A DNA stretch of 64,000 bases from Pisciglobus halotolerans (GTDB taxonomy: Bacteria; Bacillota; Bacilli; Lactobacillales; Carnobacteriaceae). A program made the translations under genes and the position numbers. Below the pieces are notes generated by a model. It made no database searches. It was not told the DNA's origin and was given only the letters and a program-made list of their open reading frames with translations. The stretch covers positions 62,001 through 126,000 of the forward strand of contig NZ_FOQE01000002.1 in NCBI RefSeq assembly GCF_900113675.1, written 5' to 3'. Positions 21,498 to 47,436 of the stretch are shown piece by piece; positions within the stretch are counted from its first letter, which is position 1; the number at the start of each line of letters is the position of its first letter.

Positions 21498-22721
21498 TTA
21501 AATTTTTTCGGATGTTTCATGAGGGAAAAGACTTTTATTTTTTTTAATGGGCATTTTATCGACAAAAGAAGGCGATAGACTGTCGTTAGATGCAGCCTTT
21601 TTTTCCCGTTCCTGCTGTTTTGGCCTTTTTTCATCAAGGTCTCTGACGATAAGTTGATTTCTTCCTTGTTCTTTGGCTTGATATAATGCCTGATCAGCCA
21701 AGCGGTATAAGTTCTTCATGTCTTTTTCGTTAGCTGAAGAAGCTAAACCGATCGAAACGGTCAAATGGATCGTGTGGAAATTTTCAAGCATAAAAGGTTT
21801 TTCTTCTACTGTTCTGCGAATATCTTCGGCTATTTGCTGCTGTTCGGCACACGAAAGGTTATTCAACAAGATACAAAATTCTTCGCCGCCTACTCGATAA
21901 ACGTGTTGAGGGTCTGAAGAATGTTGAAGCAACAATTCGGCAACTTGCCGCAACACCAAGTCTCCATTTACATGACCATATTGATCATTGATACATTTGA
22001 AATAATCGATATCTAGCATCAGAACAGCCGTTTGAACGACTTCAGGGTCTTCTTGGATCAACTGCCATTGTTGGCTGAAGATGCACCTGTTGTATAGACC
22101 GGTCAAGTAATCGCGTTGGGCACGTTCCATTTCATCTAGAAAACATTGTACATTTGTAAGCATATCTTCAATAAACATCACTTCAAAAATCAGGCAAACA
22201 CTAGAGATCAAAAAGTTGCTCAAAGAAATAAGAAAAACGCGCTGCAGTTCATCATAAATATAGAACAAGTTGATCGAGGAAGCGATCGTGTAAATCGTAT
22301 TTAAAATCAGCACAGTAAAATAACTATTAAAGTGCTTAGCTAACCATTTGTTGATCAACGGCAATGTTACACCCAAAGCAATATACAAAATGAAGGTGAA
22401 AATAGCTGCTTCATAAATCCCCCAGCTTAACCGCAATACAGCCGTTAAAAAAGTTGTCGGAATAGAAATAACCGGCCCAAAGTAATAGAGCAATAAAATC
22501 AGTACATTGTATCGCAAGTCGATCTTAACATGTTGCGGCAAATCAACCGAAAAAGACATCAAGACAAAGGTCGTCACACAGGAAATCAGAATAATGATAC
22601 ACTGCTGCCAAACCGTCAATGTATAGACTCTTTTTTTAGGAATGATTTGGACCACCAAATAAGATACTAAAGTTGAAATAGCGATATTGGCGATCGTACT
22701 TAATAAAATGTCGGTTACCAT
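21498..22721 (-). CDS. membrane diguanylate cyclase (GGDEF)
   Basis: Six hydrophobic segments in residues 1-200 form a 5TMR-LYT-like sensor region. The cytoplasmic GGDEF domain follows, with DYLTGLYNRCIF near 222, LDIDYFKCINDQYGHVNGD and the active-site loop YRVGGEEFCILL near 315, so it should make c-di-GMP from GTP. The usual RxxD inhibitory site five residues before GGEEF is missing (the region reads SSDPQHVYRV), so product inhibition is not expected. It ends with a basic, disordered tail. It lies 43 bp downstream of the phosphodiesterase gene and near the polysaccharide synthase operon that its product probably controls. Confidence 0.93.
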   Translation of the reverse strand: MVTDILLSTIANIAISTLVSYLVVQIIPKKRVYTLTVWQQCIIILISCVTTFVLMSFSVDLPQHVKIDLRYNVLILLLYYFGPVISIPTTFLTAVLRLSWGIYEAAIFTFILYIALGVTLPLINKWLAKHFNSYFTVLILNTIYTIASSINLFYIYDELQRVFLISLSNFLISSVCLIFEVMFIEDMLTNVQCFLDEMERAQRDYLTGLYNRCIFSQQWQLIQEDPEVVQTAVLMLDIDYFKCINDQYGHVNGDLVLRQVAELLLQHSSDPQHVYRVGGEEFCILLNNLSCAEQQQIAEDIRRTVEEKPFMLENFHTIHLTVSIGLASSANEKDMKNLYRLADQALYQAKEQGRNQLIVRDLDEKRPKQQEREKKAASNDSLSPSFVDKMPIKKNKSLFPHETSEKI

Positions 22722-22764
22722 AAGCCTTCCTTTCTGACTTTTACCTACCGAAAAGTCCCCTCTT

Positions 22765-23490
22765 TTAATGCTGCAGTTTCAGCTCAGCTGCCGGTCTGCC
22801 AAAATAATATCCTTGCTGCAAGTGTAAACCAGCATTTTTCAGCATGTCACTTGTCGCTTGGTCTTCAATTCCTTCAATGATCACATCGATTTGATTTTCC
22901 TTGGCAAATTGCTGCCAAGCTTTTAAAAATGATGCAATCGTTTCATGTGAAGCTTGTTGATGAACACATTTGATAATAGAAAACTTGATTTGTTGAAGAT
23001 AACCCACATAATTTAGCGCACGATCTAAAGAATTCTGTCCAGAGCCTACATCATCCAATGCGATCGCATAACCTTGTTGCTTGATAAAAGCTAGTGTCTC
23101 TTCAATTTCATGTTCCAGCTGCTGTGAATCGTTTTCTTCTGTTAACTCCAGCAAAGGTACATCTTCTGTAACTTCGATCATCAGTTGTACTGCATGCGTC
23201 CGCATCTGCTGAAAAAACAGTTTTGTCTCAGGATACAAAAGCTGCCGAGGCGCAAAATTGATTGATAATGAAATATTTGGATACATTTGAAACAACTGAT
23301 CTAGCTCTTGTTGCAGCCATTTCAAAAACACAGCATTTTTCTTTTGATCATGATACACTCTTTCCATCTTAGCTGCTGGATAGCAGGGTTGTACCTCTTT
23401 ATTTCGGAGCAAAACTTCATAACCAATGATCGTTTTTTCTGTCACATTGATTTTAGGTTGAAAATAAAGCTGTAAACACGCTTTTGTCAT
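22765..23490 (-). CDS. c-di-GMP phosphodiesterase (stand-alone EAL domain)
   Basis: A single EAL domain of 241 residues with the catalytic set apparently intact. EVLLRNKE replaces EAL-LR; Asn is in INFAPRQL; Glu in IEVTEDVPLL; the Asp pair in ALDDVGSG; Lys in QIKFS; Glu in IIEGIED; and the final GYYFGRP is present. Loop 6 is DDVGSGQ instead of DDFGTG. It would hydrolyse c-di-GMP to pGpG and oppose the adjacent cyclase. ATG at 23490 has AAAGGAGTG upstream and is preferred over the GTG at 23514. The 270 bp upstream contain no gene, then the 52-bp repeat array begins. Confidence 0.9.
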   Translation of the reverse strand: MTKACLQLYFQPKINVTEKTIIGYEVLLRNKEVQPCYPAAKMERVYHDQKKNAVFLKWLQQELDQLFQMYPNISLSINFAPRQLLYPETKLFFQQMRTHAVQLMIEVTEDVPLLELTEENDSQQLEHEIEETLAFIKQQGYAIALDDVGSGQNSLDRALNYVGYLQQIKFSIIKCVHQQASHETIASFLKAWQQFAKENQIDVIIEGIEDQATSDMLKNAGLHLQQGYYFGRPAAELKLQH

Positions 23491-23778
23491 AGCAATCACT
23501 CCTTTCCTACTCATTCAATCGGAATTGTTGCACTAAAAAATAATAGGCCTTTCGTTCTTTTTTCATTTTCACTATTTTTATTTATTCAGCAGTCCTTAAT
23601 ACAACAACGAACATCATAAATGATCTATGAATGCCTACTATGTGTATAGGCTATGCGGTTATTTCCGCTTCTTCTGTCTTTTTGTATAAAAGGCATTTTG
23701 ATCCTTAAACTTTAGCGTTGACAAATGTATACCTATCTAACCCCTTAAATCTCTCATTCGATAAAGCACTCGAGTTGC

Positions 23779-23809
23779 GCAGCCATTCGAACTGTTTTTG
23801 AATGGCTGC
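23779..23809. repeat. 10-bp perfect hairpin at the edge of array 1
   Basis: GCAGCCATTC (23779-23788) and GAATGGCTGC (23800-23809) are perfect inverted copies with an 11-nt loop, directly abutting the first 52-bp unit. No T-run follows on the minus strand, so its role as a terminator is doubtful. Confidence 0.6.
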
Positions 23810-23811
23810 AC

Positions 23812-24252
23812 TTATTGACCAGCTCAAACTTGACGCAGCTCCTGAGTTTGTCATTAACGCCTCTTATTGACCAACTCAAACTCAGTACAGCACTCGAGTT
23901 TGTCATTAACGCCTCTTATTAACCAACTCAAACTAGTTGCAGCTCCTGAGTTTGTCATTAATGCCTCTTATTGACCAACTCAAACTAGTTATGGCTCTCG
24001 AGTTGGTTATTAACGCTACTTATTGACTAACTCAAACTAATTGCAGCTCCTGAGTTTGTCATTAACGTCTCTTATTGACCAACTCAAACTCAATACGGCT
24101 CTCGAGTTTGTCATTAATGCCTCTTATTGACCAGCTAAAACTAGTTGCAGCTCCTGAGTTTGTCATTAACGTCTCTTATTGACCAACTCAAACTAGTTAT
24201 GGTTCTTGAGTTAGTTATTAACGCCTCTTATTAACCAACTCAAACTGATGGC
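23812..24252 (+). repeat. 52-bp palindromic tandem array 1 (8 units plus a partial ninth)
   Basis: GACC/AACC anchors recur at 23817, 23869, 23921, 23973, 24025, 24077, 24129, 24181 and 24233, exactly 52 bp apart with no insertion or deletion. Each unit reads TTATTGACCAACTCAAACT, a variable 10-12 bp, GAGTTTGTCATTAA and CGCCTC. The TGACCAACTC and GAGTTTGTCA parts pair as a hairpin. Odd units carry GCAGCTCCTGAG, even units TATGGCTCTCGAG or close variants, so the true higher-order repeat is 104 bp. It lies downstream of the GH8-like gene and upstream of the c-di-GMP phosphodiesterase gene. The 24253-24408 stretch after it holds nothing else I recognise. Confidence 0.95.
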
Positions 24253-24408
24253 AGTCTTCGTATACAAAAATTTCAAAAGGAAATATCTTCTATTGAAAGC
24301 AGCTTACATCGTAAACAATGTCTCCATGCAGATCAAAAATCATCCATTTAGAAAGAGAAAACTGCTGTCTAAAGTTCGTTCGCTGTAGTGTTAAACATTC
24401 TCTTTTGT

Positions 24409-33253: not shown

Positions 33254-33669
33254 TTATTGACTAACTCAAATTCTATTCTATTCCTGAGCTTTTCATTAAC
33301 GCTCTTTTATGACCCACTCAAATTCTATCCTGATCCTGAGTTCGTCATTAACACTCTTTTATGACAAACTCAGACTCTATCTTACTCTTGAGTTGGTCAT
33401 TAACGCTCTTTTATAACAAACTCAAACTCTATCTTGCTCCTGAGTTGGTCATTAACGCTCTTTTATAACAAACTCAAGTTCTATTCTGCTCTTGAGTTGG
33501 TCATTAAGTCTCTTTTATGACAAACTCAAATTCTATTCTGCTCCTGAGTTGGTCATTAACGCTCTTTTATCACCAACTCAAACTCTATCGTGCTCTTGAG
33601 TTTGTCATTAAGTCTCTTTTATCACCAACTCAAATCACATTATGTTCCTGAGTTTGTCATTAAGGTTTA
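33254..33669 (+). repeat. 52-bp palindromic tandem array 2 (8 units)
   Basis: The ACTCA anchor occurs at 33264, 33316, 33368, 33420, 33472, 33524, 33576 and 33628, a constant 52 bp. A unit reads TTATGACAAACTCAAATTC, TATTCTGCTC, CTGAGTTGGTCATTAACG, CTCTT. From unit 2 to unit 8 the sequences CCTGAG and CTTGAG alternate strictly, again a 104-bp dimer. It is the same family and orientation as array 1. It lies beyond the terminator of the alpha-mannosidase gene. The remaining parts of 33032-33911 hold only the mannosidase terminator. Confidence 0.95.
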
Positions 33670-42712: not shown

Positions 42713-42794
42713 TTTTGCTCAAACAGCAAATTTTTGTCCTGTGATTTATCTTCTGCTTCCCTAAACTTATCCTTGTTTATTCGATAATCAAGGG

Positions 42795-43146
42795 CTTATC
42801 TCACACTCAAATCCATTTAAAACACTGAGTATGCAATAAACAAGCTTTTATCTCACACTCAAATCCATTTCAACCTTTGAGTATGCGATAAACAAGCTTT
42901 TATCTCACACTCAAACTCATTTAGAATACAGAGTATGCAATAAACAAGCTTTTATCACGCACTCAAACTCATTTGGAACACTGAGTATGCGATAAATAAG
43001 CTTTTATCACACACTCAAACTTATTTAGGCCACTGAGTATGCGATAAGCGAGCCTTTATCTCACACTCAAATCCATTTCAACCTTTGAGTATGCGATAAA
43101 CAAGCTTTTATCTCACACTCAAACTCATTTGGAACACTGAGTATGC
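42795..43146 (+). repeat. 52-bp palindromic tandem array 3 (7 units, divergent sequence)
   Basis: ACTCA anchors at 42805, 42857, 42909, 42961, 43013, 43065 and 43117 are spaced exactly 52 bp. The unit is TTTTATCTCACACTCAAATC, CATTTCAACCTT, TGAGTATGCGATAAACAAGC. The arms TTATCNCANACTC and GAGTATGCGATAA pair over 13 positions. Only the CTCAAA...TGAG core and the 52-bp period are shared with arrays 1, 2 and 4. Units 2 and 6 are nearly identical, as are the cores of 4 and 7, which suggests copying in blocks. It lies between the terminators of two convergent genes. Confidence 0.95.
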
Positions 43147-47042: not shown

Positions 47043-47436
47043 GCTAACTCAAGAATAAAGTTTGTGCCGAGCTTGTAAAAAAAACGCTGCTTATTGACTA
47101 AATTCTATGTCGACTTTGTAAAAAAACGCTGCTCATTGACTAACTCAAGAGTAAGATAGAATTTGAGTTGGTCATAAAAGAGCATTAATGACTAACTCAA
47201 GAGCCATATTATGTTTGAGTTTGTCAATAACAAGACTTAATGACCAACTCAGAAGCAGGATGGCATTTGAGTTTGTTATAAAAGAGCGTTAATGACCAAC
47301 TCGAGAGCCATATTGTGTTTGAGTTTGTCAATAACAAGACTTAATGACCAACTCAGAAGTAGGATGGCATTTGAGTTTGTAAAAAAGACTGCTTATTGAC
47401 CAACTCAATAGTAAAGCTCATGCTGAGTTCGTAAAA
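47043..47436 (-). repeat. 52-bp palindromic tandem array 4 (6 units in register plus degenerate ones)
   Basis: TGAC anchors occur at 47137, 47189, 47241, 47293, 47345 and 47397, always 52 bp apart; before that there are two decayed copies out of register. The reverse complement of a unit (for example TATTGACAAACTCAAAC, CTCTCGAGTTGGTCATTAA) closely matches arrays 1 and 2, so this is the same family in inverted orientation. Units with GAGCCATATT alternate with units with AGGATGGCAT, a 104-bp dimer. It lies between the beta-galactosidase terminator and the tautomerase gene. The stretch 46806-47042 holds nothing recognised. Confidence 0.93.

Follow-up and report, generated by a model that had tools for sequence, protein, structure and literature searches.

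Our analysis suggests that array 1, a run of 52-bp units with inverted arms, is a bacterial satellite. Specifically, it lies within a 0.8-kb, noncoding, intergenic element that has imperfect 18-bp terminal inverted repeats and related copies elsewhere in the genome. We consider it probable that such arrays grow by random copying of blocks of units and, with less certainty, that the register of a bound protein keeps the period at 52 bp. Array 1 is found in a window, by which we mean the whole 64,000-nucleotide stretch of DNA that was analyzed, belonging to a 2.44-Mb draft of 88 contigs (Table 1).

Table 1. Coordinates of the repeat arrays, the enclosing element, and their parts within the window.
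Feature	Position	Strand	Description
Array 1	23812..24227	+	Eight units, each of exactly 52 bp, order O-E1-O-E2-O-E1-O-E2
Subtypes of array 1			O = AACTAGTTGCAGCTCC|TGAG spacer type; E1 = AACTCARTACRGC; E2 = AACTAGTTATGG
First tetramer of array 1, units 1-4	23812..24019	+	Copied as units 5-8
Second tetramer of array 1, units 5-8	24020..24227	+	
Last arm of array 1	24228..24242	+	TTATTAACCAACTCA; at the alpha-end boundary
Dyad example	23843..23878	.	Arm TGAGTTTGTCATTAA, spacer CGCCTC (6 bp), inverted arm TTATTGACCAACTCA; tight axis
Dispersed element	23596..24394	+	799 bp, noncoding, contains array 1; flanks common to six or seven other loci
Left terminal inverted repeat	23596..23613	+	TTAATACAACAACGAACA; 2 mismatches to TTAACACTACAACGAACA
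Right terminal inverted repeat	24377..24394	-	Minus-strand reading TTAACACTACAGCGAACG
Beta end of element	23596..23811	+	Common to the C31, C42, C65, C84, C46, and C41 copies
Alpha end of element	24243..24394	+	Common to the C65, C41 (two loci), C84, C42, and C46 copies
Array 2	33258..33664	+	~7.8 units; arm family as in array 1; whole units not alternating
Array 3	42778..43146	+	7.1 units; different arm, TGAGTATGCGATAAA; layout 15/6/15/16 unchanged
Array 4	47137..47413	+	5.3 units; alternating dimers, spacers AGAGCCATATTRTGTT / GAAGYAGGATGGCATT

The unit has a simple anatomy. It consists of two inverted 15-bp arms with spacers of 6 and 16 bp (15 + 6 + 15 + 16 = 52). In array 1, the units run head to tail within an intergenic gap and, together with a ninth arm, occupy 23812-24252; the dyad given as an example in Table 1 is followed by the 16-bp spacer and then by the next arm. 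Dyad symmetry is present in nearly all arrays, with a score of ~0.5 against an expected 0.25. The arms fall into four families, three of which (TGAGTTKGTCATTAA, TGAGTRTGCRATAAA, and TGAGTTGGAACGATA) are laid out as 15/6/15/16, placing arm centers 21 and 31 bp apart, or ~2 and ~3 helical turns. The fourth family, F3 (AACTCGTTCACAG/CTGTGATCAAGTT), has 13-bp arms and spacers of 9 and 17, so that the 2-turn/3-turn spacing is only approximate. Arms nearly always occur in arrays or in isolated pairs, and solitary arms are rare. Single dyads (arm, 6-bp spacer, arm) stand outside arrays at C50:19754-19789 and C75:43752-43787, and these are possible seeds of new arrays.

Within array 1, the strict odd/even alternation over eight units that was reported in a preliminary description is real. 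The odd units contain GCAGCTCCTGAG, and in the even units we find TACAGCACTCGAG, TATGGCTCTCGAG, TACGGCTCTCGAG, and TATGGTTCTTGAG (a ...CTCGAG-type core). Of all possible splits, odd versus even was the best (parity test, P = 0.029, the lowest value that eight units allow), and the contrast resides in the 16-bp spacer, where identity was 0.80 for units of the same parity and 0.64 for units of different parity; the arms hardly differ by parity. Furthermore, TRF scored a period of 208 bp (724) above 104 bp (653) and 52 bp (569), and identity was higher at lag 4 (0.90) than at lag 2 (0.86), which makes the higher-order unit a tetramer, O-E1-O-E2, and not merely a dimer. Unit by unit, the two tetramers are 87, 92, 90, and 90% identical. 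Such an order would arise if two units were duplicated first and then four (1-2-4-8). Growth by two-unit blocks, as first proposed, would then persist as one step in the history of array 1, with the four-unit copy after it, and fails as a rule. It is highly improbable that the number and order of the units are an artifact of short-read assembly. Runs of N do occur inside several arrays, such as the one at C31:11307, and other arrays reach contig ends or come close to them (C34, C84, C48, and C62), but the eight units of array 1 are all distinct in sequence, and the array is contiguous with both unique flanks present. Elsewhere in the draft, the runs of N inside arrays (C31:about 11460 and C69:34267-34820) and the contigs that end in arrays mean that unit counts may be underestimates.

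The other arrays of the window give a mixed picture. Array 4 alternates as had been described, with lag-2 identities of 98% and 88%, compared with 65-69% for lag 1, over only about five units. Its odd and even spacers offer a by-eye hint of complementarity, of which there is none in array 1. For array 2, the alternation of CCTGAG and CTTGAG in units 2-8 was likewise found, but it involves a single C/T site and does not extend to the whole unit (parity test, P = 0.71). Alternation was absent from array 3 (parity test, P = 0.20).

The period itself is strikingly uniform across the genome. When 1.09 Mb was scanned, in contigs selected for carrying matches, 61 segments were recovered at lag 52, with additional signal at multiples of that lag and no more than one array at any other, non-harmonic lag. 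After segmentation, there were 62 arrays with a period of exactly 52 bp, corresponding to ~388 units and 20 kb. Their density is uneven: the match-bearing 1.09 Mb held all 62, a further 0.63 Mb held six, and a 100-kb stretch of contig C86 held no 52-bp array. Based on simple hexamer-based gene calls made for this analysis, 60 of the 62 arrays are without called genes, while the remaining two overlap short, low-scoring open reading frames. The gaps that contain them are co-directional (33), divergent (12), or convergent (11), with 6 arrays at contig ends. A second dispersed intergenic repeat of ~260 bp occurs at ~20 places (C51:12287-12546, C75:30591-31219, C42:12-288, and many others); it sometimes adjoins 52-bp arrays and is often alone.

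Dimers, in contrast to what the preliminary description had claimed, do not run throughout the 52-bp arrays. Among 47 arrays, mean identity was no higher at lag 2 (0.859) than at lag 1 (0.860; Wilcoxon P = 0.31), and the parity test gave P < 0.05 in three, about the chance expectation for 47 tests. On inspection, alternation was convincing in array 1, C42:5038, and C61:26353. For the 40 arrays with at least five units, the best higher-order period was 1 in 19, 2 in 12, 3 in 4, 4 in 4, and 5 in 1, a spread that is expected from random block duplication. Alternation is a minority state genome-wide and only one among the patterns that random copying of blocks produces. Unequal exchange or slippage has probably added and removed blocks of one to ~five units at a time, always in the 52-bp register.

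Loci homologous to array 1 provide a second view of this process. Between shared boundaries, array 1 has 8 units and its homologs have 6, 6, 5, 7, and 1; an additional homolog with one recognized end has 6, and the C31 copy, which is interrupted by an assembly gap, contains no fewer than 11. Paralogs with 1, 5, 6, 6, 7, and 8 units exclude even-only changes among them. Even-numbered differences between strains had been anticipated from dimer-wise growth; our comparison was of paralogous loci rather than strains, and these fit single-unit changes. Together with best periods of 1, 3, 4, and 5, the unit counts rule out dimer-wise growth as the rule. The homologous elements have subtypes in common, ordered differently. 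Specifically, the E1 unit of array 1 occurs three times consecutively at C65:2100, O-type units form tandem runs at C31:11307, and E2 is the sole unit at C46:102375, so alternation is not required. We find it scarcely credible that alternation is functional in the sense suggested earlier, namely, that neighboring palindromes must differ to avoid pairing with one another. While arrays 1 and 4 do alternate strictly, both subtypes carry the same pairing arms and differ in the nonpalindromic 16-bp spacer. Identical neighbors are common in many arrays and homologous loci, and the E1 triplet and the O runs contradict the idea directly. Overall, identity at lag 1 is not lower than at lag 2, and adjacent units are on average no less similar than distant ones. 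The O/E dimer of array 1 appears to have no function as such and to reflect an ordinary satellite history.

The flanks of array 1 are common to other loci over ~175 bp on the left and 148 bp on the right. An imperfect 18-bp inverted repeat, TTAACACTACAACGAACA, bounds several copies at both ends, and the same termini also bound elements whose arms belong to the unrelated fourth family. Since ends were recognizable for only ~18 of the 62 arrays, dispersal within the element is established for a subset only. The C46 copy is flanked by CTAA at both ends, and other copies are without a clear target-site duplication. No transposase-bearing element with these termini was seen in the genome. At C73:16874-16959, a solitary beta-end fragment with the terminal repeat, flanked on one side by the end of a dUTPase-like gene and on the other by a terminator-like hairpin, resembles a deletion remnant of the element. 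A 183-bp element at C75:68847-69029, with near-perfect terminal repeats and only one arm-like motif, is possibly its smallest form. Array 1 itself is ~300 bp upstream of an EAL-domain gene, after which comes a GGDEF gene (window 21498-23514).

The constancy of the unit length calls for an explanation. Adjacent units differ at ~13% of sites (1,787 substitutions), and a register shift of ~1 bp was found in only about six arrays, in one case at an assembly gap. Loss of register also makes an array less easy to find. Most of the gaps counted within arrays cancel each other in pairs and are alignment noise. At the ends of the same elements, by contrast, the ratio is 0.16-0.20 indels per substitution. 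The scarcity of indels in arrays would be explained either by selection for 52 bp or by recombinational homogenization. If homogenizing recombination alone keeps the period, and an unknown transposase disperses the copies via their terminal repeats, then the arrays could be a neutral or selfish satellite with no host function. We regard this as possible, though unlikely. It is consistent with dispersed copies bounded by terminal inverted repeats, with unit numbers free to vary from 1 to at least 11, and with absence from relatives in the family, but it leaves unexplained why unrelated sequences of many Firmicutes share one 52-bp period and one dyad layout (PMC8161180). Under the explanation that we prefer, a satellite held in a protein register, 52 bp may have been retained since the arms are putative sites for an oligomerizing DNA-binding protein; arm centers 21 and 31 bp apart, or 2 and 3 helical turns, would put all sites on one side of the helix. 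Only tentatively do we suggest the more specific scenario in which an undescribed, fast-evolving DNA-binding protein polymerizes on arm sites 2 and 3 turns apart and thereby sets the 52 bp, while elements bounded by terminal inverted repeats seed arrays chromosome-wide. No DNA-binding protein for the arms was identified.

Alternatively, the arrays could be transcribed and act as RNA, with hairpins of a 15-bp stem and a 6-nt loop serving as structured 3' regions, sponges, or small RNAs. We find this doubtful. Folding of array 1 beats that of shuffled sequences on both strands (z = -4.7 and -3.5), but good folding is expected from any inverted repeat. Similarly, G-U outnumber A-C mismatches in the RNA sense (225 to 159), yet the excess counted by array (19 versus 11) is not significant. 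Transcription of 52-nt repeats has been published for B. coagulans (PMC8625621), and 26 of the 33 arrays in co-directional gaps are closer to the 3' end of the upstream gene. Nevertheless, divergent gaps are as rich in arrays (12/116) as convergent gaps (11/112), array 1 has neither an internal terminator-like site nor an excess of promoters, and no Rfam family was matched above its gathering score. Covariation was also absent at the level of the unit: within-unit arm changes comprised 7 compensated, 14 uncompensated double, and 228 single changes, and permutation revealed no compensatory change with either the tight partner (P = 0.47) or the wide partner (P = 0.26). The absence of compensatory change within units favors sites rather than stems, and we conclude with modest confidence that the arms are sites on DNA rather than stems in RNA.

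Comparisons with relatives yielded little. No homologous array was found in 17 other members of the family, and no period-52 array was found in the family sequence sampled. Among 295 other genomes of the order (the 17 from the family and 278 others), a search for homologs of the array or the element returned two chance-level matches only. The terminal repeats had mostly single, chance-level matches in other genomes of the order; a multicopy near-match in G282 and G020 (14 copies in G282) lies within a tnpB-like reading frame and was dismissed as coincidence. Empty sites were sought by comparison with relatives over a sample of 292 kb, which yielded no convincing pair of syntenic loci. A plasmid or phage origin was rejected, with no match in plasmid or phage records.

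Array 1 belongs to a class that is already known. The 52-nt tandem repeats of Bacillus and other Firmicutes are constant in size and variable in sequence, with no established function (Subirana and Messeguer, PMC8161180; PMC8625621), and short sequences and their reverse are frequently found in one repeat unit (PMC8161180). The arrays described here resemble them in having a 52-bp length across unrelated families of one genome, with other lengths rare, in being noncoding and intergenic (60/62), in carrying inverted arms of 15 bp (13 bp in one family), and in being species specific in sequence; they differ in their host, which appears to belong to the Lactobacillales. When the published consensuses of 22 Bacillus families of 51-53 nt (PMC8161180) were tested for inverted arms, 14 were significant at 0.05 and 12 at 0.01 (combined P = 8e-18), and the short spacer of the dyads was often 5-7 nt. 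We found no dyad layout set out explicitly in PMC8161180, and, as far as these papers show, the layout, the higher-order periods, and the element bounded by terminal inverted repeats that are reported here have not been described for the class.

Other repeat systems share some of these features. BIMEs and REPINs (PMC2817692, PMC3116915) are also inverted doublets of a short motif whose orientation alternates, with spacers of two lengths, one short and one long; they are intergenic and dispersed, and can be tandem. The arms reported here, however, are without a regular GTAG tag and without within-unit compensatory changes, and they keep a strict 52-bp period. A RAYT-driven REPIN was rejected: the Y1 transposase PF01797 had no match in the genome, while 5 of 14 control genomes were positive. 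Like bacterial MITEs, the enclosing element is short, noncoding, and intergenic, with 18-bp terminal inverted repeats and several copies. Unlike them, it has an internal, expandable satellite and imperfect, old repeats. Neither a consistent target-site duplication nor an autonomous partner was found. Eukaryotic alpha-satellite similarly acquires higher-order periodicity via block duplication and homogenization, but our arrays have fewer than 15 units each at many dispersed loci, and a centromere-like role is not known. In contrast to a CRISPR array, the whole unit repeats here, and spacer types are shared rather than unique.

The alternation is less interesting than three other facts: the unit is a strict 52-bp dyad, this unit recurs in unrelated Firmicutes repeats, and array 1 is contained in an element with terminal inverted repeats. 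In the literature, the 52-nt Firmicutes repeats stand as a puzzle, being constant in size and unconserved in sequence, with no known partner. The shared dyad layout on a five-turn unit and the enclosing element make this puzzle testable, and experiments can now address which protein binds the arms, whether the spacing or the pairing of arms is important, and how arrays move. If the protein-register reading is true, the sequence of these repeats would turn over freely while the dyad and the register stay.
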